NCBI GenBank assembly: GCA_027459505.1 | Contig: DAIDIE010000020.1 | Span: 62,001 to 126,000, forward strand | Length of the DNA stretch: 64,000 nt | Reading direction: 5' to 3' | Origin: Acidobacteriota bacterium | GTDB lineage: Bacteria > Acidobacteriota > Terriglobia > Terriglobales > SCQP01 | Shown: piece by piece, positions 10,097 through 56,537 of the stretch | Position numbering within the stretch: position 1 is the stretch's first letter | Layout: each line of letters starts with the position of its first letter | Position numbers and translations under genes: made by a program | Notes under the pieces: model-generated | Seen by the model: the letters and a program-made list of their open reading frames with translations, nothing else | Databases searched by the model: none | What the model was told of the DNA's origin: nothing

Positions 10097-10102
10097 GCCG
10101 AG

Positions 10103-41198: not shown

Positions 41199-42079
41199 GC
41201 GACCACCGCTTTCTGCGCCTCTTCGGCGCGCACCGGGCAAATCAGTACGGGGCAGGAGGCACTGCGGATCACCGTGTTGGCGGTGCCTGAAGATAACGGC
41301 GCCCACCAGGGCTTTACGCGAGCTCCCAGGACGATCAAGTCGGCTTGCCGCCGTTGCGCCTCCGACAGGATGGCGACTGCCGGATCAGCGCCGAAGCCCA
41401 CGGCGAAGTCGGTGCCCGGACGAGGGCCGGGAGGGATGACGCGGCGCAACACGTCGCGCTCGCCGGGGCGAATCGCGTCCTGGCCGAAGCGGGTTTCCAC
41501 GTGCATCACGGTCAGCAGCGCCGCGTGCTGATCCGCTAGACTGGCCGCGACCGCCCCCGGCCCAAACCCGTGCAGCATGTCGGTGGCGTAGAGAACCTGG
41601 CGTACGGCGAGCCGCTGACCCACGCCAATCCGGTTGTTTGGACCCACTACCCATACCGGCACCATGGAATGGCGGAAAATAGCCTCCGCCGTCGAACCTT
41701 GCAGCACCCGGTCCAGGCCCGTCGGCGCGGCGGTTCCCATGACGACCAACCCAATCTCGAAGTCGCTCTCCAGTTTGTTGGCGGCTTCTTCCGGCGTCAT
41801 CTCCTCGATCCAAACGCGATGGGCGACCCCCTCCAGTTCCGGACGGCTGGCCAGGCGGTGTAAGGCCTCCCGGTCGGACTCCAGCATTTCAGTTCTCACT
41901 AGCGCCGTTGACTCGGGCTCATAGAGCCCGTAGCGGTTGAAATCGAGAGCATGCATGATGTGCAGACACGCCTTGAACTCGCGCGCCAACGCGACCGCGT
42001 GTTCCCAGGCGCGCTCGGCGCTGAGGGAAAAATCCGTCAGGTAGAGAATTTCGCGCGGCCGGAAGTTTTGCCCTGGCAT
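41195..42079 (-). CDS. Universal stress protein, tandem UspA domains
   Basis: 294 residues with two UspA domains (ILYLTDFSLSAERAWEHAVALA...IGLVVMGTAAPTGLDRVLQGSTAEAIFRHSMVPVWVVGP is domain 1; residues ~160-290 are domain 2 with LIVLGARVK and SGTANTVIRSASCPVLI). The second half keeps a G-x(9)-G-S/T-like ATP loop. Such proteins support survival under energy and oxygen limitation. First gene of the minus-strand operon; a sigma-54 type promoter lies about 42 bases upstream of the start. Homologous to the Usp at 44685-45626. Confidence 0.9.
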   Translation of the reverse strand: MPGQNFRPREILYLTDFSLSAERAWEHAVALAREFKACLHIMHALDFNRYGLYEPESTALVRTEMLESDREALHRLASRPELEGVAHRVWIEEMTPEEAANKLESDFEIGLVVMGTAAPTGLDRVLQGSTAEAIFRHSMVPVWVVGPNNRIGVGQRLAVRQVLYATDMLHGFGPGAVAASLADQHAALLTVMHVETRFGQDAIRPGERDVLRRVIPPGPRPGTDFAVGFGADPAVAILSEAQRRQADLIVLGARVKPWWAPLSSGTANTVIRSASCPVLICPVRAEEAQKAVVA

Positions 42080-42120
42080 AGGTGTGTGCTCCCCACTGGA
42101 AGTCCTAACGCCCTGTCTGC

Positions 42121-42136
42121 TGCATGTCGGCTGCCA
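42121..42136 (-). promoter_or_regulatory. Candidate sigma-54 promoter for the Usp-Usp-Pat operon
   Basis: Read on the minus strand: TGGCAGCCGACATGCA, with GG and GC exactly 12 bases apart and TGGCA/TGCA matching both boxes. Transcription would begin near 42110, giving a leader of about 30 bases to the Usp start at 42079. The gap 42080-42407 holds no gene, only this site and the weaker one at 42358. Confidence 0.6.
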
Positions 42137-42357
42137 AAATGCGGCGACTTGGCGAGGCTACAGTCAATCACCGCAGAAGCGTGAGTAACTGACCATTGCA
42201 AGGCTGCAGCGGCCGGAAATGTGCGTTGTGCCACAGCGGGGGAAGGCTCGGCGGCCTGCGGCAATTGCCCCACCCCCATGCGCATTAAGCCGCACTGGAT
42301 TGCCGCCAGGGTCCTCAAGCGCTTGCAAATCATGTGCTTATCGCGTTTATAGCGGTT

Positions 42358-42373
42358 TGGCCCCCAACGTGTA
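42358..42373 (+). promoter_or_regulatory. Degenerate sigma-54 type site before the zinc-ribbon gene
   Basis: TGGCCCCCAACGTGTA has TGGC and TG at the right spacing but GT instead of the nearly invariant GC in the -12 box. Its distance to the ATG at 42408 (35 bases) fits the other sites. Listed because position and form match its neighbours; it may be inactive. Confidence 0.25.
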
Positions 42374-42407
42374 GTTCAGCCGGTGGGAAGACCAGCAGGG
42401 AGGAGCC

Positions 42408-42641
42408 ATGGGCGCTAGCGCTGTTAAGCAGAAAGCCATTGAACCCTCACCACGTACGGCGGAGCGAGCCAATGCCCGCCATGTGCAGAAGCGCTGCCGC
42501 AGTTGCGGCAACTACTTCGAGGGGGAGTTGGATGGAACCTACCTCTGCCTCCAGTGCCGCCAGGATGATCCCCTGCACTTGCAGGGCGCGCTTCCGCTCA
42601 CGGATCTGGAGATTGTCTATCGCCGCCCGGCGCACCGGTAG
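42408..42641 (+). CDS. Zinc-ribbon microprotein
   Basis: 77 residues with a strong ribosome-binding site (GGGAGGAG six bases before ATG). CRSCG and CLQCR form a CxxC-x13-CxxC zinc-ribbon or rubredoxin-like knuckle (residues about 30-50), flanked by a basic N-terminus and a C-terminal tail. It sits 33 bases before a radical SAM gene on the same strand, so it may be a partner, a metal or electron donor, or a substrate for it. I know no named family. Confidence 0.75.
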   Translation: MGASAVKQKAIEPSPRTAERANARHVQKRCRSCGNYFEGELDGTYLCLQCRQDDPLHLQGALPLTDLEIVYRRPAHR

Positions 42642-42674
42642 AGCCAGTCGGGGAAAAGGAGACGAGGAAAACGT

Positions 42675-43817
42675 ATGTCAACCACGATGCGAGCCAATCC
42701 AGTGCCGGATTTTCACCAAGCCCCTTGGGTGGCAATTTGGGAGGTCAGCCAGGCCTGTGACCTGGCCTGCCTGCACTGCCGCGCTTCTGCGCAAGCGGCG
42801 CGGCATCCACTGGAACTGACCACGGAAGAGGGCCGTGACTTGTTGGATCAGATCCGCGCCCTGCAGCCACCGGTCCTGGTTTTTACCGGCGGCGATCCGC
42901 TGAAGCGTCCTGACATTTTCGAATTGGTGCAGTACGCCGCCAAAATCGGGCTTGTTCCGGCCTTTACTCCGAGCGCCACGCCGCTGTTGACCCCCGAAGC
43001 CCTGGAGCGCCTGGCCATGGCGGGATTGCGCCGGGTGGCGCTGAGCCTCGACGGCCCGGATGCGGCGACCCACGACGCTTTCCGCGGCGTCTCCGGCTCA
43101 TTTGATTTGACCCTGCGCGCCGCTCAGGCGGCCCGCCAGCTTGGCTTGGAGTTGCAGATCAACACCACCGTGCGGCGTTCCAGCCGCGCCGATCTGACTC
43201 GCATTGCCTCGGTCGTGGAGCAGTTGGGGGCGCTGGTGTGGAGTGTGTTTTTCCTGGTGCCGGTCGGCCGCGCGCTGCGTTCGGAGATGCTCAACGGCGA
43301 CGAAGCCGAAGACGTTTTCGCCACCCTGCTAGAGATTGCTTCGCGGCGCAAGTTTGCCGTGCGCACCGCCGAAGCGCTGCATTACCGCCGCTACCTCCTA
43401 CAGCATAAAGAGCAGGGCAAGCACACGGCGCCGCTGGTGTGGTCGCCCGGCTATGTGCCACTGGGCATCAGCGACGGCTGCGGCTTTGTCTTTATCTCCC
43501 ATACCGGAGAGGTTTATCCCAGCGGATTCCTGCCGGTCAGCGGCGGAAACATCCGCCGCCAGCCCTTGGGAGAGATTTACCGCAATAGCCCCATGTTTCG
43601 CGAATTGCGGGAACGCGATCAGTTGAAAGGGAAGTGCGGCGTCTGCGAATTCCGCAAAGTCTGCGGCGGTTCGCGCTCGCGTGCCTTTGCCGTTACCGGG
43701 GACTGGATGGAGTCCGACCCCAGTTGCTCCTACATTCCCAAGACCTGGCAACCGCAGTCCCTGGAAGGCGCCACGCCGGAAAAGGAACTGTCGCGAAAGG
43801 AGTCGGCCGGCGCCTAA
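42675..43817 (+). CDS. Radical SAM/SPASM protein (TIGR04053-like)
   Basis: 380 residues. The [4Fe-4S]/SAM site is CDLACLHCRA (CxxxCxxC, about residues 29-37), with FTGGDPL as the SAM-contacting GGE-like motif and LSLDGPD further on. The C-terminal SPASM-like region has CGFVFISHTGEVYPSGF and CGVCEFRKVCGG plus a last Cys in DPSCSYIP, enough for one or two auxiliary clusters. The architecture matches the haem-biosynthesis-like family near AhbD/NirJ. Neighbouring di-iron repair proteins and the haem gene at 46930 support a haem or Fe-S role, which is inference. Confidence 0.85.
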   Translation: MSTTMRANPVPDFHQAPWVAIWEVSQACDLACLHCRASAQAARHPLELTTEEGRDLLDQIRALQPPVLVFTGGDPLKRPDIFELVQYAAKIGLVPAFTPSATPLLTPEALERLAMAGLRRVALSLDGPDAATHDAFRGVSGSFDLTLRAAQAARQLGLELQINTTVRRSSRADLTRIASVVEQLGALVWSVFFLVPVGRALRSEMLNGDEAEDVFATLLEIASRRKFAVRTAEALHYRRYLLQHKEQGKHTAPLVWSPGYVPLGISDGCGFVFISHTGEVYPSGFLPVSGGNIRRQPLGEIYRNSPMFRELRERDQLKGKCGVCEFRKVCGGSRSRAFAVTGDWMESDPSCSYIPKTWQPQSLEGATPEKELSRKESAGA

Positions 43818-43849
43818 ACCGTGGCGTCATGTGGGCCTTGACCGTTATG

Positions 43850-43877
43850 GGGCAGCCAGCGCGGTTCCTGGCTGCCC
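43850..43877 (+). terminator. Hairpin between radical SAM gene and RIC gene
   Basis: GGGCAGCCAG (43850-43859) and CTGGCTGCCC (43868-43877) form a perfect 10-bp stem, 8-base loop, then AAATGTTTTTG. It could terminate the upstream transcript. The right arm overlaps TGGCTGCCCAAATGTT (43869-43884), a further degenerate -24/-12 like sequence with GT in the -12 box, 20 bases before the RIC start. Confidence 0.5.
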
Positions 43878-43904
43878 AAATGTTTTTGTGAATAGGTTGA
43901 CCTC

Positions 43905-44627
43905 ATGATGATGGCGGAAGACACTCTGCGGCGCATCCTTTTGGAGCGGCCGGAAGCGGTGTCGCTGTTTGAAGCCCTGGGTATTGACTACGCCTGTGGC
44001 GGCGAACGCACGCTTCGGGAGGAGTGTCAGCGCAAGGCGTTGTCGTTGGATCTGGTCAGCCAACAGGTTGCGGCACTGCCGGCGCCGGAGGCGACCTGCG
44101 CCGAGTTTGTCTATCTCGTGCCCCTGCCGGAGTTGGCCCGCCATATCGTTGAGACTCACCATACGTTTGCCCGCACCCAGATGCCGCGCATCAACCGTCT
44201 CTTCGAGCGCGCCGCACAGCTCCACAGCAGCCGGCTGCCCAATATTTGCCGCCTGCGCGAACAGATGATGGACCTCAGCGATGAATGGTCGGTGCACATG
44301 ATCCGCGAAGAGCGGGGCCTGTTTTCCACCGTGCATCGCGGCGGCAATCCGCACGAGGGCGGCTGTCGCGGAGTATTAGCCGGCTGCGCGATGAGGGTCT
44401 CGCTGCAGCAGATTCGCCTGGAACATCAGATGGTGGTGCTGCGCATGCAAAGCATCGTGACCGCGCTCTCGCACTCCCTGACCGTCAGCAGCCTGACTGA
44501 TCCCCTGCCGCGGGAACTGGAAGCGATGCTGCTCCAGTTTCAGGCTGATCTCCACCTGCACGTCCACCTGGAAAACAACATCCTGCTCCCCCGCCTGGAA
44601 CAGCTCGAGCAGACGCTGCGAGCCTAG
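43905..44627 (+). CDS. RIC (ScdA-type) iron-sulfur cluster repair protein, copy 1
   Basis: 240 residues. The N-terminal domain (1-60, DUF542 type) has the signature GIDYACGGERTL. The C-terminal hemerythrin-like domain supplies di-iron ligands: HIVETHH, SVHMIREE, RLEHQ and the C-terminal HLHVHLENN. The family repairs Fe-S clusters after nitric oxide or oxidative damage. The middle carries a short GGNPHEGGCRGVLAGC insert. 40% or so like copy 2 at 46096 by eye. Downstream of the radical SAM gene, separated by a hairpin. Confidence 0.9.
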   Translation: MMMAEDTLRRILLERPEAVSLFEALGIDYACGGERTLREECQRKALSLDLVSQQVAALPAPEATCAEFVYLVPLPELARHIVETHHTFARTQMPRINRLFERAAQLHSSRLPNICRLREQMMDLSDEWSVHMIREERGLFSTVHRGGNPHEGGCRGVLAGCAMRVSLQQIRLEHQMVVLRMQSIVTALSHSLTVSSLTDPLPRELEAMLLQFQADLHLHVHLENNILLPRLEQLEQTLRA

Positions 44628-44684
44628 CCAGCCGCATCGGTTTTCAGCGCCGCCCCCTTCAGAAGAGCCGTTGCACCCGCCACG

Positions 44685-45626
44685 TCAAGCCTGGGCGTAA
44701 TGGGCGTGAGTAGCCGTTTCGTGCAGTGGCGCCAGCGCCGCGCTGTGGTTGGGAACCACCAACACTGGGCAGGGCGCGCTGTGAATCACATTGCTTAGCC
44801 GTCCACCCCCGAAAGGCAGCCACCAGCCCTGCTCGTGCGCCCCCATCACAATAAGGCTGGCCTGTCGCCGCTGCGCTTCCTCCACAATGGCGGCGCTGAC
44901 ATCGCGACCGTGCACGACGACGTTTTCCGCTGTGGCGCCGGCATCAATTGGCAGCACTTCCAACCGCAGCCGCTCCAATTCGCGGGTGAGCGTATCGGTC
45001 TCGTTGATGACCTCTGGCGCGGGGTTCCCGATCCAGGAGGGGCGTACGACATGCAGCAACGTCAGTGCGGATTGATGACTATGGGCCAGGCTGAACGCCA
45101 CTTGCGCGGCAGCGTAGTGAACCATGTCCGTGGGACACAGAATCCGGGGCAGTTGCAGGGGCGCGCGGCGCCCGGCTCTTGGGCCAACTACCCACGCGGG
45201 AGCGCCGGCGTGGCGAAAGATGGTGGCGGCCGTGGAACCGGCCAGCAATCCTTCCCAGCCAAGCCTCCCCTCCGAACCCATGACAATCAGGTCAATGTGG
45301 AACTGGGCCGTGAGCTCCTGTGCGGCGCGCACCGGTGACATCCGCTCCAGCCAAATGTGGTGATCAACGTCACGCAACTCGGGCCCGTCCAGGTTGTGCA
45401 GCAACGCCTGCGCGGAGTGCAGCAGTTCGTCCCGCAGCATGGCCGCTCCATCTGCCACCATCCAGCGGTAACGGCCCAGATCGAAGGCATGCGCGATGTG
45501 CAATGTCGCCCCGTATTGGCGCGCCAGCGCCACCGCATGGGGAAAGGCGTCCCGCGCGACCGCCGAGAAGTCGGTCAGGTAGAGGATCTGCCTGGGTCTG
45601 AACGGCAGCGAGTTGAGGATGGCCAT
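44685..45626 (-). CDS. Universal stress protein, tandem UspA domains
   Basis: 313 residues. ILYLTDFSAVARDAFPHAVALARQYG begins the first UspA domain; LIVMGSEGRLGWEGLLAGSTAATIFRHAGAP its C-terminus. The second (ILCPTDMVHYAAAQVA) ends with LIVMGAHEQGWWLPFGGGRLSNVIHSAPCPVLVVP, keeping a G-rich nucleotide loop. The start at 45626 has a perfect AGGAGG. Closely related to 41195-42079, so the two probably arose by duplication within the island. Confidence 0.9.
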   Translation of the reverse strand: MAILNSLPFRPRQILYLTDFSAVARDAFPHAVALARQYGATLHIAHAFDLGRYRWMVADGAAMLRDELLHSAQALLHNLDGPELRDVDHHIWLERMSPVRAAQELTAQFHIDLIVMGSEGRLGWEGLLAGSTAATIFRHAGAPAWVVGPRAGRRAPLQLPRILCPTDMVHYAAAQVAFSLAHSHQSALTLLHVVRPSWIGNPAPEVINETDTLTRELERLRLEVLPIDAGATAENVVVHGRDVSAAIVEEAQRRQASLIVMGAHEQGWWLPFGGGRLSNVIHSAPCPVLVVPNHSAALAPLHETATHAHYAQA

Positions 45627-45710
45627 GTTTCCTCCTTCGAGCGTGCGCATACAGTAAGCAAGCCGGACGCAGTCCTCGTGCAAGAAACGGGAGCGTGCCG
45701 GAAAAGCCAT

Positions 45711-45726
45711 TGCACGCAAGTGTCCA
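45711..45726 (-). promoter_or_regulatory. Weak sigma-54 type site upstream of Usp gene
   Basis: On the minus strand TGGACACTTGCGTGCA keeps GG and GC twelve bases apart but the -24 box is TGGAC, not TGGCA. A transcript from here would have a leader of ~75 bases to the Usp start at 45626. Confidence 0.35.
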
Positions 45727-45758
45727 ATCCGTCGAGCGCTGGGTCCGGCTGGATGTGA

Positions 45759-45872
45759 GTTCGAAAGCGCAGGCCGAAAAGGTCCGGGGTTAAGGTTAAG
45801 CTTCCGCACCGCTCGCGACTGCTACGCGGCCTGGGGTGGGCCGGACACTGGAGCGGATGGAATAAAAGCGGG
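45759..45872. repeat. Dispersed intergenic repeat, copy B (uninterrupted)
   Basis: Matches copy A (3945-4234) over its start (GTTCGAAAGCGCAGGCC), middle (GCACCGCTCGCGAC) and end (GGTGGGCCGGACACTGGAGC then GGATGGAATAAAAGCGG). Copy B lacks the 114-base palindromic insert and is 114 bases in total. It lies in the gene-free interval 45627-46095, between two divergent genes of the stress island. Function unknown; no coding capacity. Confidence 0.55.
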
Positions 45873-46048
45873 CCGCGGCGCCCGTGCGCCGCTGTGGAGC
45901 AGCATTCTCCGTGGCGCAGCTATATCCCTTCGCGATCCCTTCCGCCACTGCGCGAAAATGCCACCCCGTGCGGGCTAGTACGCAGGAGAAGCAGGAAAGA
46001 CTTGAATTTCCGGAGCGGCGAACCACTGGGCGCGGAACGATATGCCTT

Positions 46049-46064
46049 TGGCATGGGAAATGCA
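46049..46064 (+). promoter_or_regulatory. Candidate sigma-54 promoter for RIC copy 2
   Basis: TGGCATGGGAAATGCA: GG and GC twelve bases apart, TGGCA and TGCA boxes match consensus. Predicted start of transcription about 46075, 20 bases before the ATG at 46096, leaving room for the GAAGAGAGAAG ribosome-binding region. Confidence 0.6.
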
Positions 46065-46095
46065 CGGGAACGGTGGGAACGAAGAGAGAAGAACT

Positions 46096-46848
46096 ATGAG
46101 CGCAGCCGCCATCAAAACCGTTCAGGAAATCGTTTTACAGACCCCCTCCGCCATTCCTCTGTTTGAATCGCTGGGCATCGATTATTGCTGCGGCGGAGAG
46201 CGCACGCTGGCCGAAGCCTGCGCTCGTGCGGAAGTGGACGAGCCGGAGGTCTCCGGCCGGTTGGCGCGACTGAACAATCCGCCGCACAGCCCCGAGCTTT
46301 TCCTCACGATTCCTCTCTCGCTGCTGGTGCGCCACATCGTGGAAGCGCATCACGTGCAGGCGCGCGAACAGCTGCAGCTCCTCAGCTTGTTAGGGGCGCG
46401 CGCGGTGCGCACCGCCGGAGCGCGGCATCCCCGCCTGTATCGTATTCGCGAGCAGATGGCCGACCTGGCCGATGAATTTTCCGTGCACATGCTGAAAGAG
46501 GAGCGCGTGCTGTTTCCCTACATTGAGCGGCTCGATGAGAGCGCCGCCTCCCACATGCGTTTGCCGCTGCACAGCTTCCGCGGTTTGGGCATCCAGTTGC
46601 GCGTCATGCGCCATGAGCACGATGTCACCACTCAACTAGCCGACGCCCTTGCCAGCGCGCTCGCGCAGGTGCTCAGCGAAAGCGCCTCGTCCAGCCACGA
46701 ACGCCAGCAGCCATGCGCCGCGGTCCGGGAACTCGCCGAAGCCTTTGAAACCTGGCGTAAGGCGCTGCACCTGCATTTGCATTTGGAAAACAACGTGCTT
46801 TTCCCGCGCGCTGAGCGGCTGGAAGAGGAACTCGCGCTAGGTAGATAG
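46096..46848 (+). CDS. RIC (ScdA-type) iron-sulfur cluster repair protein, copy 2
   Basis: 250 residues. N-terminal GIDYCCGGERTL is the canonical CCGG form of the ScdA/YtfE N-domain. The hemerythrin-like domain has HIVEAHH, SVHMLKEE, RHEHD and HLHLHLENN as di-iron ligands. Expected to repair Fe-S clusters damaged by nitric oxide or peroxide. The ATG at 46096 is where homology begins; an upstream ATG at 46042 would place the start before the candidate sigma-54 promoter, which argues against it. Confidence 0.92.
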   Translation: MSAAAIKTVQEIVLQTPSAIPLFESLGIDYCCGGERTLAEACARAEVDEPEVSGRLARLNNPPHSPELFLTIPLSLLVRHIVEAHHVQAREQLQLLSLLGARAVRTAGARHPRLYRIREQMADLADEFSVHMLKEERVLFPYIERLDESAASHMRLPLHSFRGLGIQLRVMRHEHDVTTQLADALASALAQVLSESASSSHERQQPCAAVRELAEAFETWRKALHLHLHLENNVLFPRAERLEEELALGR

Positions 46849-46929
46849 GCAGAGCAGCGGAATCGCAATGCAGCAGGGCGTACCGCGCCAGAGGTATTCC
46901 GGACGGCCCGGCCTCACTGCGTTGCGCGC

Positions 46930-48354
46930 TCAGCGGCTGACTGCCTGCGTGCGTTCCTCCAGGAATGCCGCCGCCAGACGCTCTCCCTGCTCCACACATC
47001 CTGGAACACCGCCTCCGGTGCGGCCCGCGCCCGCGAAATACAGCCCCTCATGCCGGCTCAGAAGTTGGTCGATGCGCGCTATGCGCGCTGTGTGTCCCAC
47101 CACATATTGCGGGTTGCCGCGCTCCCACCGGAAGATCCTCGTGAACAGTGGGGTAGCGCGAATTCCCAGCGTGATGCGCAGTTCCTGCCGGACAATGTCC
47201 TCCAACTCGTTGTCACTTCCTTGCAGAATGTGGTTGAGCTCCGGTCCGCCCAAAAAGGCGCGCAGCAGGAATACGTCCTCGGGAGAGCGCGCCGGAAACT
47301 TTGCACTGGTCCAGGTGCAGGCTTTCAGGCGCCGGTGCGCCTTGGGCGGAACAAAGTATCCCCAGCCCTTGCCCAACCCCTGCGCGCTGTTCAGGAGGTC
47401 GGCGCGCCGGAAGGCGACAGAAACCGTGGCGCTTGAGGCGTATGGAATCGCATTGAACTCGTCGCGCAATTCGGGATCAAGCGTGGCGACCAGTGTGGCC
47501 GCGCTGTAAGCGGGAACCGCCAGCACCACCTCGTCAACGCTGATGCCGCTTCCGCATTCCATTTGAACCACCCATCCTTGCGATCCGCGCCAGAGCCGGG
47601 AAATACGCTGGCCAAGCTTCACCTTGGTGGGATCAAGCTGAGCCGCAAGCGCGTCGATCAACTGCTGCATGCCGTTTTTGAAGCTATAAAATCCTCCACC
47701 CGTGTTTCCGGAGGGCGCCGCGGCGGCCGTCTGCCGGCGGTTGGCCAGCATTGCCCGTAGCAGGCCGCCGTGTTCCCGCTCCATCCGGCGCAGTTGCGGA
47801 AAGGTACTGAGGACGCTGAGCTGGGCCGCGTCGCCGCCGTGAATGCCCGCGAGCAGAGGCCCGGCGATAGTCCGCAGCATCTCTCCGCCCAACCGCCGCT
47901 CGACAAAGGAGGCCAGGCTTTCGTCCCCCTCGTCCCGTTTGGGCGGAATGAAATATTCCATGCCCATACGCATCTTGCCCGGCCAGGAAATCACGCTGGA
48001 ACGCAGGAAGGGGCTGATTTTTCGTGGAACCAGTTGGGTGATGCCCTCCGGTAGCGGTTTCAGCTTCTTGCCTTGCCAGAGGTACAGGGTGGAGGCGCCC
48101 GTCTCGGGTTGGATGAGTTGCGAGTCGAGGCCCAGTTCACCGCAGAGCCGCCGCAACGCCGGGCGATGGGAGAGAAACGAATCCGGTCCGCCCTCCAGTG
48201 TGCAGCCCTGCTCGGCCACCGACACGATCTTGCCGCCCAGCCGGTTTCCGCTTTCCAGCAGAAGATAGCGGACGCCGGAATTGCGCTCGCGCTGCAGGCG
48301 ATGAGCGATGCTCAGTCCCGTGATGCCGCCGCCGATAATTGCTATGGTCTTCAT
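46930..48354 (-). CDS. hemY: Protoporphyrinogen oxidase (HemY-type flavoprotein)
   Basis: 474 residues. FAD-binding GGGITGLSIAHRLQ near the N-terminus, GNRLGGKI, the LEGGPDSFL motif, and a C-terminal FAGAGRTGGGVPGCVEQGERLA. It oxidises protoporphyrinogen IX (or coproporphyrinogen III in related enzymes) during haem synthesis. As the last gene of an NnrS-cydA-cydB-hemY operon (8 bases after cydB), it ties haem supply to the haem-rich bd oxidase. The frame runs upstream to 48573 inside cydB; homology begins at 48354. Confidence 0.9.
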   Translation of the reverse strand: MKTIAIIGGGITGLSIAHRLQRERNSGVRYLLLESGNRLGGKIVSVAEQGCTLEGGPDSFLSHRPALRRLCGELGLDSQLIQPETGASTLYLWQGKKLKPLPEGITQLVPRKISPFLRSSVISWPGKMRMGMEYFIPPKRDEGDESLASFVERRLGGEMLRTIAGPLLAGIHGGDAAQLSVLSTFPQLRRMEREHGGLLRAMLANRRQTAAAAPSGNTGGGFYSFKNGMQQLIDALAAQLDPTKVKLGQRISRLWRGSQGWVVQMECGSGISVDEVVLAVPAYSAATLVATLDPELRDEFNAIPYASSATVSVAFRRADLLNSAQGLGKGWGYFVPPKAHRRLKACTWTSAKFPARSPEDVFLLRAFLGGPELNHILQGSDNELEDIVRQELRITLGIRATPLFTRIFRWERGNPQYVVGHTARIARIDQLLSRHEGLYFAGAGRTGGGVPGCVEQGERLAAAFLEERTQAVSR

Positions 48355-48362
48355 TGCGCCTC

Positions 48363-49385
48363 TCAGTAATGCGCGTCTTCCAGGCGTACCTTGCCACGGA
48401 AAGTGCGGTGAACGTAAGTGGTGTAAACCGCCACGCCGATCATGCCAACAATGTTGGCGGCAAACGCGGTCCGCAGCGCATGCGTGGTCGAGGCGGCATT
48501 GTAAATATTCAGGCTGAAAGCCGGATTCACGGTGGAGATGAGCAGGTTCGGAAATACGCTGATGCCGGCGCAAATCAGCATTCCGGGAATCACTCCCGCG
48601 CTGGCCCGAAACGCAAGCGCTTCACCATCCGCGCGCCGGTCCGAGCGTAAGGCCAGCGCAAAAGCGATCACGACCAGAACCGGGAAAAGCAGCGACACCG
48701 GGTGGGCGAGGAAGGGCGAGAACGTGCTTTGACGCAGATCAAAAGCCGATAGCGTGGTAGACACCGCCAGGAGAACCGTTAAAATCCCAATTGGCCGTGA
48801 CCAGCGTGCCGCCCGCTCATGCAGCGCGCCTTCGGTCTTCAATCGCAGGTAATGGGTCCCATGCCACGACAGCACCGCGACGCTCAGAAGCCCGGTCAAC
48901 ACTGAAAAGGGGTTGAGCAGCACGGTAAAGCTACCCTGAAAAGTACCGTCGGCGGCAATCGGGAGCCCGCGTACCACATTGCCCAGCGCCACCCCAAGCA
49001 GCAGGGCCAGCAGCAGGCTCGACCAGGTAAACACCGCGTCCCAGAACGCACGCCAGAGCGGATAGGGGAACTGGCCTCGAAATTCCAGCGAGACGCCGCG
49101 CAGGATGAGCAGCCAGAGGACGACCATCAGCGCCAAATAAAAGCCGCTGAACCCGGAGGCGTAAACGCGCGGAAACGACACCACCATCATGCCGCCGGCC
49201 GCGATCAGCCAGACCTCGTTGCCATTCCAGACCGGGCCGATGGAGCTGAGCGAGAGGCGCCGTTCGGGATCGGTATGCGCCACCCAGACGTGCAGTGCGC
49301 CCACTCCAAGATCGTAGCCGTCAAGGACGGCGTAGGCGGCCAGCATTCCCGCCAGACTCCAGAACCAGACGATATTCATATTCAT
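48363..49385 (-). CDS. cydB: Cytochrome bd ubiquinol oxidase subunit II
   Basis: 340 residues, eight or nine membrane segments. AVLDGYDLGVGAL, GPVWNGNEVWLI and RGVSLEFRGQ are CydB signatures. Structural partner of CydA. Start codon overlaps the cydA stop by four bases (ATGA). Terminal oxidases of this type work at low oxygen and tolerate nitric oxide. Confidence 0.96.
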   Translation of the reverse strand: MNMNIVWFWSLAGMLAAYAVLDGYDLGVGALHVWVAHTDPERRLSLSSIGPVWNGNEVWLIAAGGMMVVSFPRVYASGFSGFYLALMVVLWLLILRGVSLEFRGQFPYPLWRAFWDAVFTWSSLLLALLLGVALGNVVRGLPIAADGTFQGSFTVLLNPFSVLTGLLSVAVLSWHGTHYLRLKTEGALHERAARWSRPIGILTVLLAVSTTLSAFDLRQSTFSPFLAHPVSLLFPVLVVIAFALALRSDRRADGEALAFRASAGVIPGMLICAGISVFPNLLISTVNPAFSLNIYNAASTTHALRTAFAANIVGMIGVAVYTTYVHRTFRGKVRLEDAHY

Positions 49386-50743
49386 GCGGTCGCTCCATGG
49401 TCGCCCAGCGAGGGACGCGCTGGCGGGCCGCCAGCCGGCCCCTGCGCGATCACGCGCCCAACCAGCAGCAGGAAGAGCAGTCCAAGCACGAAATACAATC
49501 CGGCAAAGCCCAGAAGTGTGAAGATCGTTTCTCCGGCGGCCACATTGGGGGAACTGCCCGCCGAGGTGCGAAGCATGCCGTAAATCAACCAGGGTTGGCG
49601 CCCGACTTCCGCTACCACCCAGCCGGCTTCATTGGCGATATAGGGAAACGGCACGCTCAGCATCAGAATCCACAGAAACCAGCGTTGGTGGTAAAGTCCG
49701 CCGCGCCATAAAAGCAGCGTGCCCAGCAGCATGATCAGAATGAAGCAGCTCCCCAGCCCAACCATGATGTGATAGGCGTAGTAAGTCAACTCCACCGGCG
49801 GCCAAAGATCTTTTGAATACTGGTTGAGTCCGGCCACCGAGGAATGGAACTCGCCGTAAGCAAGAAAACTGAGTACGTCCGGCGCCAGCACGGGATCGAT
49901 GAGGCGCCGGTGTTGCGTGTCGGGCATGCCAAGGATGGCCAAAGGCGCGCCCTGCTCGGTCTGAAACAGCCCTTCCATGGAGGCCAGCTTCACCGGCTGA
50001 TAGCGCACCACGTTTTTGCTGTCCATATCGCCGGTGGGAAAGACCTGCAGGATGGCCAGGATCAGGCCACTGACCACCGCCCCTTTGACCGTCATGCGGG
50101 CAAACTCCGCATGGCGTCCCAGCAGCAGATAAAATGCGCCTATGCCGCCGGTGACGAAGGCGGCAGTGACCAGCGCGCCGTTGATGGTGTGCAGGTACTG
50201 CCAGCCGGCGTAGGGATTGAGCAGCACCGCCCAGAAGGACTGCAGCACGGGCCTGCCTTGCGCGTTGAGGGTAAAGCCCACAGGATGCTGCATCCAGGCG
50301 TCCGTGGCGACGATAAAGTAGCCCGACAGCAGCGAGCCGGCGGCGACGCCCATGCCCGCCATCCAGTGCAGGCCGCGGCTGACGCGCTTTTCTCCGAAGA
50401 GAAACAGGCCAAGGAACCCGGACTCCAGGAAGAAGGCGTAGACACCTTCCATCGGAAGCGTCTGGCCAAAGATGCCGCCCCCGAAGGCGGAAAAGCGGCT
50501 CCAGTTGGTGCCGAACTGAAACTCCATGGGAATGCCGGTAACCACGCCAATGGCGAAGTTGATGGCAAAGATGCGCGCCCAAAAACGCGCCGCCTCGGCG
50601 TATACCGGTTTGCCGGTGCGCCACGCCAGCGTCGACAGCACCGCGAGAAACACCCCCAGCCCCATGGTGAGAATGGGGAAGAGGTAATGGAACATGATGG
50701 TGAAGGCGAACTGGATGCGTCCGGCGAAAACCGCTTCGTTCAT
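49382..50743 (-). CDS. cydA: Cytochrome bd ubiquinol oxidase subunit I
   Basis: 453 residues with about nine membrane segments. Haem and quinone features: FHYLFP (haem His near the N-terminus), EFQFGTNW, the Q-loop region with PVKLASMEG, and GWVVAEVGRQPW. It reduces oxygen to water with quinol. Length suggests a short Q-loop, as in cyanide-insensitive-type oxidases. Located 49 bases after the NnrS-like gene in the same direction. Confidence 0.96.
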   Translation of the reverse strand: MNEAVFAGRIQFAFTIMFHYLFPILTMGLGVFLAVLSTLAWRTGKPVYAEAARFWARIFAINFAIGVVTGIPMEFQFGTNWSRFSAFGGGIFGQTLPMEGVYAFFLESGFLGLFLFGEKRVSRGLHWMAGMGVAAGSLLSGYFIVATDAWMQHPVGFTLNAQGRPVLQSFWAVLLNPYAGWQYLHTINGALVTAAFVTGGIGAFYLLLGRHAEFARMTVKGAVVSGLILAILQVFPTGDMDSKNVVRYQPVKLASMEGLFQTEQGAPLAILGMPDTQHRRLIDPVLAPDVLSFLAYGEFHSSVAGLNQYSKDLWPPVELTYYAYHIMVGLGSCFILIMLLGTLLLWRGGLYHQRWFLWILMLSVPFPYIANEAGWVVAEVGRQPWLIYGMLRTSAGSSPNVAAGETIFTLLGFAGLYFVLGLLFLLLVGRVIAQGPAGGPPARPSLGDHGATA

Positions 50744-50792
50744 GGTTGTTCCTCGGAGTGCCCTCCAGGGCTCCCTTGATGCGCCACGCTGC

Positions 50793-52313
50793 CTAGGCGG
50801 GACGGGCGCGCATGCCCGACAAGTGGCGCTTGAGCTCCGCCAGGACCGATTCCGCGTCCACCCCCTCGCGCTCAGACTCCTGAGCCAGGGTGAGGTCGCG
50901 TGGAATCTCCCGCAACTCCCGCAAGCGGCGCAAGCCGGCCCGCTGCAGCAATTTGCGAACGCCGGGATAGGCGTTCACGAACCAGAACAGCGACAGGTTG
51001 ATGTTCAGCAACTCTGGATCAAACCAGATAGGAGCGGGCTTCAACTGCGTCGCCGCCATATTCAAGGCAAACAACAGCACCGCGGCAAACTCGATCCAGG
51101 CCGAGACCGGCAGCAGGCGCCAGGCCAGATCGTGGGTGCTGGAGTAGGCAACACTTTCGCAGATCACGCGCAGCACGCAGCCGATGTTGAGGCTGAGCAG
51201 GGAGGCCGTCATCAGCCGGGTGCTGAACAGTTGGCGGCTGTTCAAAAACGCCGGCAGAAGGCGTGGCCCGACGGTAAAGATGAGACCGGCGACAAACCCC
51301 ACCGTGATGGCATGGCGCGAAGCGCCTCCGAACCCCACTCGAAGCGGGAAAATGACGCTCAACAGCGCCAACGTGGCGCCCGCCGGCAGCCAGGCGAAAC
51401 AGATCCGCATAAACAGCGGCGTGTAGGGGCTGACGCCCTGCAGACGCGGGGTACGCGACGAATGCCGGAACACCTGCATCACCCAAACGGCAAACAGCGC
51501 CACGCCCCACGCCAGCACGTCCACCACCGCGAAGCGGTGCGCCAGCGCCGCAATCGCCACCGCCAGGAACAGCGGCGCAATGAATGGGGCTGCCTTGACG
51601 TTCAGTGGCGGCAACAGCAGGTAACGATGCACAAAGCGCGTGCTGTAGGAGAGCGCCACTGGGATGACAAATACCCAGACCGCCAGCAGCACCAGGGCGC
51701 GATCGCCAGCCTCGGGGTAGGTCGGACTGCTGCCCCAGAAGGCGGCTTGAATCGAATAGTACAGGTTTGCCAGCAGCACCACTCCCAGCCCGCTGAATCC
51801 GACCATGCCAAAGCGTGATCCCAGGTCCACAGGCCGGGGTTCGGTCTTTCGCGGTTGCCACACCAGCGCCGACATCACCAGCAGGTAGGCCAACAGCAGC
51901 ACTGCGGCCGAACCCACCAAACCGCTACGCCACGCTTCTCGCGTCACCACTGCCCACCAATGCCAGAAAACGCCGACCGTCCAGAGTGTCCATATCGTGT
52001 AGCCAACGTTCGCCTCGACTGGGCCCCGCTGCCGGATCTTTGGCAACAGATAGATCGATATCCCCAGAATGAAGCTGCCCACCCACCCAAACAGTTGCGC
52101 TTGCCCGTGTGCCTGGATCCAGGAGGCCTCCGGCGCTCCCGGCGCGCGGTTGGAGACAATGCTCATCAGGTTCCACACACCCAGAAACGTCCCCGGCAGC
52201 ACCACAAACCACAGCCCCGCCGCGATAAACAAGCCCAGCAGGCGCGCGGCCGTGCGTTCATGGCGCGGATCATTGAGGATTGGAACGGCGGCGGTCTCGG
52301 GGCTAGAGCTCAT
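50793..52313 (-). CDS. NnrS family membrane protein with C-terminal DUF1858-like domain
   Basis: 506 residues. About twelve membrane segments; HGQAQLFGWVGSFILGISIYLLP is the NnrS hallmark (HGH..LFG), and further conserved His residues lie in FVHRYLL and ASRHAITVGFV. NnrS proteins are haem/copper membrane proteins linked to nitric oxide metabolism. The soluble C-terminal ~65 residues (AYPGVRKLLQRAGL ... LTLAQESEREGVDAESVLAELKRHL) look like DUF1858. Start 52313 is preferred over 52400, which would precede the predicted transcript start. First gene of the cyd operon. Confidence 0.85.
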   Translation of the reverse strand: MSSSPETAAVPILNDPRHERTAARLLGLFIAAGLWFVVLPGTFLGVWNLMSIVSNRAPGAPEASWIQAHGQAQLFGWVGSFILGISIYLLPKIRQRGPVEANVGYTIWTLWTVGVFWHWWAVVTREAWRSGLVGSAAVLLLAYLLVMSALVWQPRKTEPRPVDLGSRFGMVGFSGLGVVLLANLYYSIQAAFWGSSPTYPEAGDRALVLLAVWVFVIPVALSYSTRFVHRYLLLPPLNVKAAPFIAPLFLAVAIAALAHRFAVVDVLAWGVALFAVWVMQVFRHSSRTPRLQGVSPYTPLFMRICFAWLPAGATLALLSVIFPLRVGFGGASRHAITVGFVAGLIFTVGPRLLPAFLNSRQLFSTRLMTASLLSLNIGCVLRVICESVAYSSTHDLAWRLLPVSAWIEFAAVLLFALNMAATQLKPAPIWFDPELLNINLSLFWFVNAYPGVRKLLQRAGLRRLRELREIPRDLTLAQESEREGVDAESVLAELKRHLSGMRARPA

Positions 52314-52409
52314 GGTCTGTTTGACTCCCGGTTTGATTCCAACGGGCGGCGCTCCAATCACACCATCAGCGGCCTGAAGCGCAGGAATGCTTGAACGCAA
52401 CTTGGCTGC

Positions 52410-52425
52410 TGCAGGTTTATCGCCA
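52410..52425 (-). promoter_or_regulatory. Candidate sigma-54 promoter for NnrS-cydAB-hemY
   Basis: On the minus strand TGGCGATAAACCTGCA: TGGC and TGCA boxes, GG and GC twelve bases apart. The transcript would start near 52399 with a leader of about 85 bases to 52313. The 345-base divergent gap 52314-52658 contains no gene, only this site and the opposing one at 52624. Confidence 0.6.
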
Positions 52426-52623
52426 AACAGAACCGGTGCGGTAGCGTGAAATGCCGAGTTGGCCTGGAGCGCTCCTGTTGAAAGGTGAGGAGGCGCACCC
52501 TCAAACCGGGCCTCGAGTGCCTGATAGCGTTATTCTGAGTGAAAACACGCAGTTTATTGTGCGATTTCACCCAATGTGGGATTCTCCGCACCAGGACAGC
52601 GCCGCTTCCGTGCGCAATTTGTT

Positions 52624-52639
52624 TGGCAGTGCACCTGCT
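52624..52639 (+). promoter_or_regulatory. Sigma-54 type site before the histidine kinase
   Basis: TGGCAGTGCACCTGCT matches both boxes with correct 12-base GG-GC spacing. The predicted start of transcription (about 52650) falls inside the AAGGGG ribosome-binding site of the kinase gene at 52659, so the resulting mRNA would be nearly leaderless. Either the start differs or the match is accidental. Autoregulation of the two-component genes would make sense. Confidence 0.4.
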
Positions 52640-52658
52640 TGTTACTAAGGGGTCGACT

Positions 52659-54764
52659 ATGAATCAGCCCTTCAACCCCCTGACCGACGCCCAGAAGTCG
52701 CAACTGCTGGACTTGGCGTTCAATGCGGCGCTGGTCTGCGATGCGCAGGGCCGAATCGTCTACTGGAACCGGGGGGCCGAACAACTTTATGGTTGGGGCC
52801 GGGAAGAGGCGCTGGGTAAAAGCGCCTTGGAACTGTTAGAAAGTCGTTTGCCACAGCCCTTGGAGCAAATCTACGACCAGCTTCGCCGCCAGGGTGAATG
52901 GCAGGGGGAGGTGAAACAGACCCATCGCAATGGGGCTGGCATTTTGGTTTTGAGCCGCTGGGCGCTTGCGGCAACATCTGCGGCTGATGCCTCCTCAATT
53001 CTGCAGATTGATCGCGACATCACCTCCGGCAGGCGTGCCGAGGAGGTCAGCCGGATGGAGTTTCTCGTCCTGCGCACGTTGGGAGAGGCGGTGGATCTGA
53101 CCGACGCCGCCACGCGTGTGCTGGAGACATTGAGCCGGGAGTTGTTCTGGAGCCAGGGCGAATACTGGAGCGTTTCCGAGACCGACCTGAAGTGTATCGC
53201 GGTCTACGGCGATGCACCCTGCGCCCAAGTCGCGGCGGCAAACGAGAGCGCACTGCTGGACGAGTTTTTCCGTCCCCTGGATGGCGAGGCGGCCGGCGCC
53301 CTGTCGGAAGTGTGCCGCACCGGTCAGCCATTACTCATGTCGCTGGATGCGGTTCCAGCCGAGTGGCGCCCCGAGCAAGCCGCGCGGGCCGCTGGCATGA
53401 CCGACGTGCTGGTGTTTCCCATCCAGAATCAGCATCACCTCCGTGGCGTGTTTCGCTTATTTCGCAATATGCAGGCGGTGCCGCCCGCCCAGGGCGTTGC
53501 GGTCTCCGATGAGGCGCTGCTGCAGGCACTATCGTTGGCTGCGGCCCCCATGGGGCAGTTTGTCGAGCGCTGGTCGGCGCAGGTTGCGCTGCGGCGCAGT
53601 GAGGCGCGCTTCCGCAGCCTGTTGGAGTCGGCGCCCGATGGCATCCTGATCGCCAACTCGCGCGGCGCCATTCAACTGGCCAACCAGCAGGCGGAAATGA
53701 TGTTTGGCTATACCCGCCAGGAACTGACCTCCATGCGCGTGGAGGACCTCATGCCGGAACGCTTCCGCCGCAACCACGAGCACCATCGCGGCAGCTATAC
53801 CCGCCACCCCCAGGTGCGGCCCATGGGTGTGGGCCTGGAGCTGTTTGCGCGCCGTAAAGACGGAGTGGAGTTCCCGGTAGAGATCAGTCTCAGCCCCATC
53901 CACATCGATGATGAACCGCTGGTCATTGCCGTGTTGCGCGACGTTACCACACGCAAGCAGGCCGAAAGCGCTGCCCACGAATTGCAGCAGGTCAAGCTTG
54001 CCGAAGCGGAACACCTGGCCACCCTGGGCGAGATCGCGGCCGGCCTGGCGCACGAGATCAAGAATCCTTTGGCCGGCATTGCCGCGGTTTTGGAAGTATT
54101 GGGGTCGAGCTATGCGGAAGGGCACCCGGATCGCGAACTGATGCTGGAGGTGAAGCAGCAGGTCAAGCGAATCAAGGTGACCGTGGATGACCTGCTCAAC
54201 TATGCCCGTCCCAAGCCCATCGAGCTGCTGGAGAGCGATCTCAATGCCACCGTCGAACAGGTGGTGCACTTCACTATGCAACAGGCAGCGGCGCACCACG
54301 TCAATATCGTCTGGCACAACTACCAGTTGCCGCCGGTGCGCCATGATCCCGAGCAAATTCAGCGTCTGGTGATGAACCTGGTGCTCAATGCCGTGCAGGC
54401 GGTCGAACAGGGCAGCACGATCACCGTGAGCACCGGCTGGAGCCCACGCCGGGGCGGTGAGGCGAGCATTGCCGTGGAGGACCATGGGCCCGGCATTCCG
54501 GCGTCGGAGTTAGAAAAGATCTTCCGTCCTTTTTACACCACCAAAGGCCGCAGCGGCACCGGTTTGGGCCTCTCGGTATGTCAGCGCATCGCCAAGTTGC
54601 ACAACGGCCGCATCGAAGTGACCAGCCGTCCGGGGGAGGGCAGCACGTTTGTCGTCTGGCTCCCCTGTCCGGCGCGTCCTCCGGCCATTCATCCGGCGTC
54701 TGGGGGCGGACGGCGCCCCACAACTGAGGGGGCCGCACCCGCCGCCTCGGAGGAGAAATCGTGA
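52659..54764 (+). CDS. Soluble PAS-GAF-PAS sensor histidine kinase (NtrB-like)
   Basis: 701 residues with no membrane segment, so a cytoplasmic sensor. Order: PAS (about 15-125), GAF-like (150-300), PAS (about 325-440), HisKA with phospho-acceptor His465 (GLAHEIKNPL), and HATPase (N-box MNLVLNAVQAV; G-boxes DHGPGIP and GTGLGLS). The second PAS has LMPERFRRNHE with His373 where FixL has its haem-ligating His, but many non-haem PAS domains share this. It phosphorylates the sigma-54 activator encoded by the overlapping next gene. The C-terminal tail is Ala/Pro rich. Confidence 0.92.
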   Translation: MNQPFNPLTDAQKSQLLDLAFNAALVCDAQGRIVYWNRGAEQLYGWGREEALGKSALELLESRLPQPLEQIYDQLRRQGEWQGEVKQTHRNGAGILVLSRWALAATSAADASSILQIDRDITSGRRAEEVSRMEFLVLRTLGEAVDLTDAATRVLETLSRELFWSQGEYWSVSETDLKCIAVYGDAPCAQVAAANESALLDEFFRPLDGEAAGALSEVCRTGQPLLMSLDAVPAEWRPEQAARAAGMTDVLVFPIQNQHHLRGVFRLFRNMQAVPPAQGVAVSDEALLQALSLAAAPMGQFVERWSAQVALRRSEARFRSLLESAPDGILIANSRGAIQLANQQAEMMFGYTRQELTSMRVEDLMPERFRRNHEHHRGSYTRHPQVRPMGVGLELFARRKDGVEFPVEISLSPIHIDDEPLVIAVLRDVTTRKQAESAAHELQQVKLAEAEHLATLGEIAAGLAHEIKNPLAGIAAVLEVLGSSYAEGHPDRELMLEVKQQVKRIKVTVDDLLNYARPKPIELLESDLNATVEQVVHFTMQQAAAHHVNIVWHNYQLPPVRHDPEQIQRLVMNLVLNAVQAVEQGSTITVSTGWSPRRGGEASIAVEDHGPGIPASELEKIFRPFYTTKGRSGTGLGLSVCQRIAKLHNGRIEVTSRPGEGSTFVVWLPCPARPPAIHPASGGGRRPTTEGAAPAASEEKS

Positions 54765-56215
54765 ACGCGCGCATCCTGATTATTGACGACGAACGCCTGC
54801 TGCGCTGGTCCTTGCGCCGTAAATGCCAGGACTGGGAATACGAGGTGGTCGAAGCCGAATCCATCGAGCAGGGCAAGACCGTCTGGTCCGAAGAACAGCC
54901 CGATCTGGTGCTGCTCGACGTGCGCCTGCCCGATGGCAGCGGAGTAGATCTCTTGCGCGCCATGCGCCAGGAACACGCGGCCGCCCAGGTAGTCATGATC
55001 ACCGCCGACCCCAAAGTCGAGGACGTGAAGACCGCTCTACGGCTCGGCGCCTACGACTATCTCACCAAGCCCATCGACTTCGATGAGCTGCAGCTCACCA
55101 TTTCCAACGCCCTGGAAGTCAACAAGCTCCGCAAGCAAGTCAACGCCCTGCAGGACGAGGTGCGCCGCGTGAACGGCGGCATGCAGGTGGTCGGGCGTTC
55201 GCCGCAGATGCGCTCAATTATGGATTTCGTCGCCAAAGTGGCGGCCAGCGAGGCGACCGCCATCCTCATCCAGGGCGAAAGTGGTACCGGCAAGGACTTG
55301 ATCGCCCAGTCGCTGCACGCTATGTCCAGCCGCAGCGAGCAGGCTTATGTGGCGGTGAACTGCTCGGCGATTCCGGAGAACCTGCTGGAGGCCGAGCTGT
55401 TCGGCCACGAGAAAGGCGCCTTCACCGACGCCCGTACGCAGAAAAAAGGCCTCTTTGAAATGGCCAACGGCGGAACGCTGTTTCTCGATGAAATCGGCGA
55501 ACTACCGCTCATGCTGCAGTCCAAGCTGCTGCGCGTGCTGGAAGACCAGAGCTTCCGCCGCCTTGGCGGCGTTAAAGATCTCAAGGTGGACGTCCGTATC
55601 GTGGCCGCCTCCAACCGCAACCTCGAGGAGGCCGCGCGGTCCGGACAGTTCCGCCAGGATCTGTTCTACCGCCTCATGGTCATCCCCATCTTTATCCCTC
55701 CGCTGCGCAACCGCCGCGATGACATCCTGGCGCTGGCCAACTTTTTCATTGAGCATTACAACGTGCGCTTCCGCAAGAAGATTGAAGGACTGACCCACGA
55801 AGCCGAGCAGTTGATGCTGAACTACGACTGGCCGGGCAATGTGCGTGAATTGAAAAACGCCATTCAGCGCGCCATGATCCTGGAGGATAGCAGCCGTATC
55901 CGGCCCACGTATCTGCCCTTCTATCACGAGTCGGGGCCGTTGCTGACCTCCAACGTCGCCTTCCCCGATCAGCAGCAGAACTCGGCGATTACCGCCGATT
56001 CCAAAACCTTGCCCAATGGCCGCCAGGTACCCCTATGGCGCATTCCTTCCGCGGGAACCTCCATGGAAGAGGTCGAGCGCGTGATGGTGACCCAGGCGCT
56101 CAGCCAGACGCATGGTAACCAGAGCCAGGCCGCGCGCCTGCTCGATATCAGCCGCGACGCGCTGCGCTACAAAATGAAGAAGTTCGGCCTGGAAAACGGC
56201 GAGGCCGCGCAGTAG
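54761..56215 (+). CDS. NtrC-type sigma-54-dependent response regulator
   Basis: 484 residues from GTG, overlapping the kinase stop by four bases (GTGA). Receiver (1-120) with IIDDER and Asp53 (LLDVRLP). AAA+ domain (about 145-385) with Walker A GESGTGKD, sigma-54 contact loop GAFTDA, Walker B FLDEIGE and the R-finger region FRQDLFYRLMV. Fis-type helix-turn-helix at the end (GNQSQAARLLDISRDALRYKMKKFGL). It opens sigma-54 promoters after phosphorylation. The set of -24/-12 sites nearby suggests that it serves the island. Confidence 0.96.
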   Translation: MNARILIIDDERLLRWSLRRKCQDWEYEVVEAESIEQGKTVWSEEQPDLVLLDVRLPDGSGVDLLRAMRQEHAAAQVVMITADPKVEDVKTALRLGAYDYLTKPIDFDELQLTISNALEVNKLRKQVNALQDEVRRVNGGMQVVGRSPQMRSIMDFVAKVAASEATAILIQGESGTGKDLIAQSLHAMSSRSEQAYVAVNCSAIPENLLEAELFGHEKGAFTDARTQKKGLFEMANGGTLFLDEIGELPLMLQSKLLRVLEDQSFRRLGGVKDLKVDVRIVAASNRNLEEAARSGQFRQDLFYRLMVIPIFIPPLRNRRDDILALANFFIEHYNVRFRKKIEGLTHEAEQLMLNYDWPGNVRELKNAIQRAMILEDSSRIRPTYLPFYHESGPLLTSNVAFPDQQQNSAITADSKTLPNGRQVPLWRIPSAGTSMEEVERVMVTQALSQTHGNQSQAARLLDISRDALRYKMKKFGLENGEAAQ

Positions 56216-56282
56216 TCGGCCCCACTCTTTTTTGATTGCGAGCGCGTCCTAGGGCGCGGTCGATAAAATGGTTGCATATTGC

Positions 56283-56537
56283 ATGGGCCTCAACATTAAA
56301 GACGAGAGTGCGTACAGGCTCGCGCAGGAACTTGCCTCCATCACCGGCGAGAGCCTAACCGTTGCGGTTACCGCAGCGCTCCGGGAACGCCTTGATCGAG
56401 TGCGCCGCAATCAAAAAGGGCCGCTTGCCGAGCGTCTGCTTGCCATTGGCAAGGATTGCGCGGCTCATCTTAAGGAACCCTATCGCTCGGCTGAGCACGG
56501 TGATCTTCTCTATGATGAAAACGGGCTGCCCCGATGA
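56283..56537 (+). CDS. vapB: VapB-type antitoxin
   Basis: 84 residues. MGLNIKDESAYRLAQELA with TGESLTVAVTAALRERL is the N-terminal DNA-binding form of the Rv0623/PSK antitoxin group, and GDLLYDENGLPR is its typical end. The frame extends six codons upstream to 56268. The ORF overlaps the start of a vapC remnant by four bases (ATGA), the usual coupling, but the toxin is gone. Confidence 0.85.
   Translation: MGLNIKDESAYRLAQELASITGESLTVAVTAALRERLDRVRRNQKGPLAERLLAIGKDCAAHLKEPYRSAEHGDLLYDENGLPR

Follow-up and report, generated by a model that had tools for sequence, protein, structure and literature searches.

Does the sigma-54 activator encoded in this acidobacterial locus control the genes around it, and through which DNA site would it do so? 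The stretch of DNA analyzed here (the window, 64 kb) belongs to a genome of 4.06 Mb (4,061,573 bp) in 45 contigs. An initial annotation, made from the letters alone, had proposed that a kinase–regulator pair switches on a whole island of low-oxygen and NO-stress genes from a set of sigma-54 promoters. The relatives retrieved by protein search were all Acidobacteriota, mostly Terriglobia and Acidobacteriaceae.

Gene content of the island

The island spans 37 to 56 kb of the window, and its proteins were identified by Pfam and NCBIfam profile searches. It encodes a CoA-ligase/acetyltransferase, three universal stress proteins (Usp), a radical-SAM protein (TIGR04053), two RIC-type iron–sulfur repair proteins, HemY, CydB, CydA, a membrane protein, a PAS kinase, and an NtrC-type regulator. 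The genes that matter for the argument are the following:

41195..42079, minus strand: usp2, universal stress protein with two Usp domains (PF00582, two stretches)
46096..46848, plus strand: RIC2, ScdA/YtfE-type di-iron protein of iron–sulfur repair (ScdA_N and Hemerythrin; TIGR03652 below its cut-off)
46930..48354, minus strand: hemY-type protoporphyrinogen oxidase (TIGR00562 above cut-off)
48363..49385, minus strand: cydB (PF02322, E 1.2e-83)
49382..50743, minus strand: cydA (PF01654, E 4.5e-152)
50793..52313, minus strand: predicted 12-helix membrane protein with a haem–copper oxidase subunit I fold ("NnrS-like"; AlphaFold and Foldseek)
52659..54764, plus strand: soluble PAS-containing histidine kinase (Pfam PAS, HisKA, HATPase_c)
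54761..56215, plus strand: NtrC-type response regulator (Pfam receiver, AAA+, Fis HTH; HTH GNQSQAARLLDISRDALRYKMKK)

The membrane protein had been named NnrS, and this name could not be established. The protein has no Pfam or NCBIfam match (Pfam searched to E 10), and a search of the whole genome with PF05940 (NnrS) at E 10 gave no match. The AlphaFold model (pLDDT 87) has its best Foldseek matches in CcoN and NorB. Because His69 and His334 are its only invariant histidines, the product is modelled as a haem–copper-oxidase-fold protein that lacks the customary set of ligands.

The last PAS domain of the kinase resembles the FixL PAS domain (E ~2e-17), and like FixL the kinase is soluble. In contrast to FixLJ, the position of the FixL haem-ligand histidine is occupied by an arginine, and the partner is a sigma-54 activator. 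A role as a FixL oxygen sensor was rejected on this proximal haem ligand. The low-oxygen or NO input had been read from gene content alone and, with arginine at this position, is not established.

The sigma-54 activator that had been annotated in the island is borne out by its domains, with receiver, AAA+ module, and Fis-type HTH all present. Its L1 loop, which corresponds to the GAFTGA motif that makes contact with sigma-54, reads GAFTDA and is conserved in the orthologues; this loop is listed as an activation-competent (permissive) variant (PMC4641369). The domain composition of the pair is that of AtoSC, ZraSR, and NtrBC. The best NCBIfam scores are far below the equivalog cut-offs (AtoS 265 versus 646, AtoC 437 versus 714), and the neighbors and the DNA site differ from those systems. 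The sigma factor itself is encoded in the genome; a profile search of the contigs found rpoN on contig C19 (PF04552, 198.6 bits).

Sigma-54 boxes and the palindrome between the divergent operons

Candidate boxes were defined by a spacing of 10 nt between the GG and GC dinucleotides in a TGGCACG-N4-TTGCW context, and were scored with an approximate matrix of the sigma-54 consensus (maximum 18.7 bits). Core counts for the genome come from pattern searches, and the matrix scans covered 104 kb around the window and the loci of the relatives. The cis elements retained are the following:

46049..46064, plus strand: predicted sigma-54 box before RIC2, TGGCATGGGAAATGCA (TGGCATGGGAAATGC); 15.7 bits; 32 nt to the ATG at 46096
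42121..42136, minus strand: possible sigma-54 box before usp2, TGGCAGCCGACATGCA (TGGCAGCCGACATGC); 11.3 bits
52410..52425, minus strand: predicted sigma-54 box of the NnrS-like–cydA–cydB–hemY operon, TGGCGATAAACCTGCA (TGGCGATAAACCTGC); 10.4 bits
52624..52639, plus strand: predicted sigma-54 box of the kinase–activator operon (autoregulation), TGGCAGTGCACCTGCT (TGGCAGTGCACCTGC); 11.3 bits
52537..52572, no strand: predicted palindromic upstream activating sequence common to both divergent promoters, GAGTGAAAACACGCAGTTTATTGTGCGATTTCACCC; 36 bp

All four boxes that the initial annotation had called good, 46049(+), 42136(−), 52425(−), and 52624(+), are present where it placed them and have the exact GG/GC spacing. 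Its two weaker sites failed and were dropped: 45726(−), TGGACACTTGCGTGCA, scores 4.5 bits, and 42358(+), TGGCCCCCAACGTGTA, scores 5.2 bits and has no −12 GC. Among the four, only the box at 46049 is strong by itself. The pattern TGGCAYGN5TGCW matches the genome at 13 places, this box included, and five of these matches are intergenic; RIC2 probably has a sigma-54 promoter. The usp2 candidate is weak, and the boxes at 52425 and 52624 are middling. With the kinase box, the predicted leader ahead of the ATG at 52659 measures just 9 nt and would cut into the Shine–Dalgarno sequence; the kinase leader in the relatives G001 and G006 appears longer than this.

The chance rate of such cores had been put at one per 16 kb per strand, which is about fourfold too low. 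We counted 1,918 matches on both strands of 4,061,573 bp, that is, approximately one per 4.2 kb per strand. The claimed excess of four sites holds for the intergenic DNA of the island (approximately 1.4 kb, or 2.8 kb of strand), where four sites stand against an expectation of about 0.66 (Poisson P ~0.005, with a post hoc choice of region). It does not hold across the 64 kb window, which has 22 cores versus 24 in shuffles. Sites were also compared inside and outside genes. Over the 104 kb surrounding the window, sense-strand, gene-proximal sites of at least 10 bits occur at 1.40 per kb upstream of island genes, a density based on three sites, with the kinase site scored as coding because the gene caller chose an earlier start. 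The corresponding values are 0.21 per kb upstream of genes elsewhere and 0.10–0.16 per kb in coding DNA. A common core, no window-wide excess, and scores of just 10–11 bits for 42136, 52425, and 52624 are what would be seen if all four boxes had arisen by chance in GC-rich DNA and ordinary sigma-70-type or FNR-type regulators controlled the island. Two scans of the island intergenic regions, both weak tests, found neither FNR-like sites nor sigma-70-like promoters.

The element that bears most directly on the activator lies in the 345 bp intergenic region 52313–52659. Between the outward-facing boxes 52425(−) and 52624(+), positions 52537–52572 form a palindrome, GAGTGAAA-N20-TTTCACCC, which a repeat tool also recovered as an inverted repeat and which ranks top among 450 upstream regions on a dyad matrix. 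The kinase box begins 69 nt, and the membrane-protein box 129 nt, from the center of the dyad, distances that are workable for DNA looping. The pattern GTGAAAN{17,24}TTTCAC occurs at three places in the 4.06 Mb genome, and a control reading gave 0.

The second copy is on contig C21. Its center is approximately 100 nt upstream of the box TGGCATGATGCGTGCA (14.7 bits), and both precede two genes, one for a cupredoxin and one for a cytochrome-like protein, that are unlinked to the regulator. The genes of this operon are 56–76 % identical to the pair that adjoins the kinase in relatives of other genera; the operon thus kept both cis elements despite its unlinked position. The third copy, on contig C34, was judged incidental, with no box nearby, as were the dyad matches L115, inside a Usp gene, and L150, a terminator-like hairpin without a box.

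The palindrome does fold as RNA (−11.4 kcal/mol), as a transcription terminator or RNA hairpin would. This fold is unexceptional (z −1.42), the element lies between divergent starts and has no T-run, and the sequence itself, beyond complementarity, is conserved between the palindrome loci; we consider a hairpin function scarcely credible.

The boxes at 52425 and 52624 therefore have an upstream activator site, and those at 46049 and 42136 do not. No significant palindrome was found upstream of RIC2 (dyad score 4.0) or of usp2 (7.3, within the upper tail of the background), the 95th percentile of the background being 9.7. A genome-wide palindrome scan yielded two good regulatory regions alone, the divergent region and the C21 cupredoxin operon. 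Since RIC2 and usp2 carry no significant dyad and the genome holds no other good one, the proposal that the pair switches on the whole island is unsupported; the part that stands concerns the divergent promoters of the kinase–activator and NnrS-like–cydAB–hemY operons. The same scores and the same scan would fit an activator confined to its own operon and the divergent one; the boxes before RIC2 and usp2 would then serve other sigma-54 activators, of which the genome has about a dozen with different HTHs, or the usp2 box would be chance. We give even odds to this division of labor, against which stand the RIC and Usp genes that neighbor activator orthologues in three relatives (G001, G004, and G009). 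These carry dyad-like elements together with boxes, which places both families in the regulon of relatives. Membership of RIC and Usp genes in the regulon here is plausible on the strength of these elements, and RIC2 is assigned to the activator by inference from relatives.

Conservation of the boxes and the dyad in relatives

Among the first 60 relatives, 16 have a clear orthologue of the regulator (59–66 % identity), and the next identities lie across a gap, at 47 %. The neighborhoods of the orthologues were fetched, their genes were called with a home-made caller, and the loci were then scanned. In relatives of the same family, sense sites of at least 10 bits occur upstream of genes near the orthologue at 1.02 per kb, compared with 0.22–0.24 per kb in coding DNA, 0.28–0.30 per kb in other intergenic DNA, and 0.43 per kb upstream of more distant genes. 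The arrangement of two divergent boxes with a dyad between them is found again in two genera other than that of the window: G001 and G006 belong to one of them and G003 to the other. The kinase box scores 12.2, 12.2, and 15.4 bits in G001, G006, and G003, and the box of the divergent gene, there a cupredoxin gene, scores 13.9, 12.2, and 18.0 bits, respectively. Across the promoters of the relatives, the dyad between the divergent boxes has the consensus GRGTGAAA-N17..20-TTTCACYC.

NnrS-like genes at 31 other acidobacterial loci are often beside RIC genes and have no box and dyad, so the NnrS-like gene does not carry the promoter along.

The dyad matrix was trained on five sites from promoters picked for their boxes and is partly circular; for this reason, the 443 upstream regions without training sites were scored. 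Seven of the 11 regions with a dyad score of at least 11 also have a downstream box of at least 10 bits, versus 18 of 432 (Fisher P 2e-7), with some of these hits coming from one genus and not being fully independent. Untrained promoters linked to the activator rank at the top of the 450 regions. The top untrained matches stand before a CRP/FNR gene and a RIC gene of G001, the G003 kinase gene, G009 genes of the Usp and CRP/FNR types, and the cupredoxin genes of G010 and G002. Together with the conserved divergent architecture, the elements retained at the unlinked cupredoxin operon, and an independent case in another family (G042, below), this co-occurrence makes a chance origin of all four boxes very unlikely.

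A sequence model of the dyad, run on 298 genomes of the order, found seven genomes at E ≤0.05: five family members with an orthologue, G042, and G106. The G106 match is a terminator-like hairpin and was rejected. G042 has no orthologue; in this genome a perfect palindrome, with a box of 17.2 bits beside it, separates a CRP/FNR gene from the gene of a divergent GAFTGA activator. This activator is 38 % identical overall to the window regulator, and its HTH (51 %) is the closest match found; activators of the window's own genome reach 41 % at most. Both HTHs carry GNQSQAAR and RDALRYK. That two activators of otherwise distant sequence combine this helix with this DNA site is the best evidence that the regulator binds the dyad.

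CRP/FNR genes adjoin the dyad in G001, G009, and G042, as might be expected if the boxes were real and the palindrome bound another protein, such as a regulator of the CRP/FNR type or a repressor. The dyad and the activator gene occur together, the distant G042 activator has the same recognition helix, and a dyad of approximately 34 bp with a 3–6 bp center is unlike the CRP/FNR shape; binding by another protein is therefore unlikely, if somewhat less so than chance boxes. The weak point of the case for binding by the regulator is family f2, which holds the more distant orthologues at the order level. Boxes are not significantly enriched in f2 and the dyad model has no match there at E ≤0.05, although the HTH of its regulators is nearly identical. 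The f2 orthologues adjoin ResB/CcsA cytochrome c biogenesis genes, and the dyads there, which precede ResB or cytochrome genes of G019, G030, and G041, are all weak. The family genomes g3 and g5 likewise have weak dyads only.

A predicted bidirectional switch and its relation to known systems

We propose that the region 52313–52659 directs sigma-54-dependent transcription both ways. In response to a signal, the PAS kinase would phosphorylate the NtrC-type regulator, and the phosphorylated regulator would oligomerize on the palindrome. Through DNA looping and the AAA+ motor with its GAFTDA loop, sigma-54 RNA polymerase would then open two outward-facing promoters. The box at 52624(+) would drive the kinase–regulator operon itself, and that at 52425(−) the haem–copper-oxidase-fold protein, cydA, cydB, and hemY. 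In trans, the regulator would also act on the unlinked cupredoxin/cytochrome-like operon, which has the same palindrome and a sigma-54 box. Binding, activation, the direction of regulation, and the signal are what we infer here from sequence. That the phosphorylated regulator fires both divergent promoters from 52537–52572 is given a probability of roughly 0.78.

NorR is an NO-responsive sigma-54 activator with tandem GT-N7-AC sites and a divergent norR–norVW arrangement (Rodionov 2005, PMC1274295), and it is reported to control dnrN, of the RIC type, in Pseudomonas stutzeri and nnrS in P. aeruginosa (PMC1274295). The present locus resembles norR–norVW in having a sigma-54 activator gene divergent from its putative target operon, palindromic activator sites, and a sigma-54 box. 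It differs in its kinase–receiver pair, in its palindrome GRGTGAAA...TTTCACYC, and in the presence of boxes on both divergent operons. Membership in the NorR regulon was rejected: the regulator has a receiver domain, scores 348 against the NorR model (cut-off 476), and has a palindrome other than GT-N7-AC. As in the sigma-54 regulome of Desulfovibrio vulgaris, where many two-component activators each have one or a few target operons, the predicted targets here are few operons; in passages of that study we saw no counterpart of the palindrome or the gene set (PMC4641369). A study of CO tolerance in Cupriavidus that deals with cytochrome bd proved unrelated.

Two-component sigma-54 activators that control neighboring operons are a known kind. 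In the literature searched, we came across neither a sigma-54 regulon nor an enhancer sequence reported for Acidobacteriota; the novelty lies in this individual system, with its enhancer sequence, its targets, and its place in Acidobacteriota. The palindrome is a searchable signature that links the kinase–regulator pair to its putative targets, including the unlinked cupredoxin operon, which could not be guessed from gene order. It also ties the recognition helix RDALRYK to one DNA site in a pair of activators that are otherwise distant, a link open to direct testing. More tentatively, and with more doubt than belief on our part, a two-component sigma-54 system with its own enhancer may serve one acidobacterial family as a respiratory and nitrosative-stress switch in place of the NorR, NsrR, or FNR of other phyla, with fast-changing targets (cupredoxin/cytochrome, cydAB, RIC, Usp, radical SAM, and CRP/FNR genes) recruited by acquiring the enhancer and a box.

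Gene downstream of the activator

The gene directly after the NtrC-type activator is Rv0623-like:

56268-56537, (+), Rv0623-like gene (PSK_trans_fac, antitoxin-type)

The next called gene encodes an ECF-like sigma factor on the opposite strand, and thus no partner toxin was seen.

Palindrome and sigma-54 box at other loci

The palindrome GRGTGAAA-N17..20-TTTCACYC and a sigma-54 box (approximate matrix, maximum 18.7 bits) also occur together outside the window:

L112, 1684-3033 (contig C21, same genome), cupredoxin-like gene, then CSRCH-motif gene; palindrome and 14.7-bit box
L149, 1501-1616 (G042, a genome without the activator orthologue), perfect palindrome GGGTGAAATGGCGCAGTGGCTGCGCCATTTCACCC and 17.2-bit box

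The cupredoxin-like operon is a predicted unlinked target. The G042 site is flanked by a CRP/FNR gene and a different sigma-54 activator. A weak dyad (E 0.34) precedes a pyruvate:ferredoxin oxidoreductase gene of a relative (G001, L116 1501-1629), a possible further target.

Neighbours of orthologous activators

In G004 (L039, about 4900-12220), the orthologous activator is followed by molybdopterin oxidoreductase and narHJI-looking genes, which suggests a link to nitrate respiration. In the order-level family f2, the orthologous kinase-activator genes have genes for cytochrome c biogenesis (ResB and CcsA-type) as neighbours, with weak dyads and boxes at some of these loci:

L041, 13137-15998 (G019)
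L054, 7641-9083 (G041)
L059, 2771-4342 (G020)

A membrane protein family adjoining RIC-type genes

50793-52313, (-), 12-helix haem-copper-oxidase-fold protein; family members at L118-L148

This Acidobacteriota family has no match in Pfam or NCBIfam, and only two of its histidines are invariant. In many genomes a RIC-type gene (iron-sulfur repair di-iron protein) adjoins the family gene, which hints at a role in nitrosative stress.
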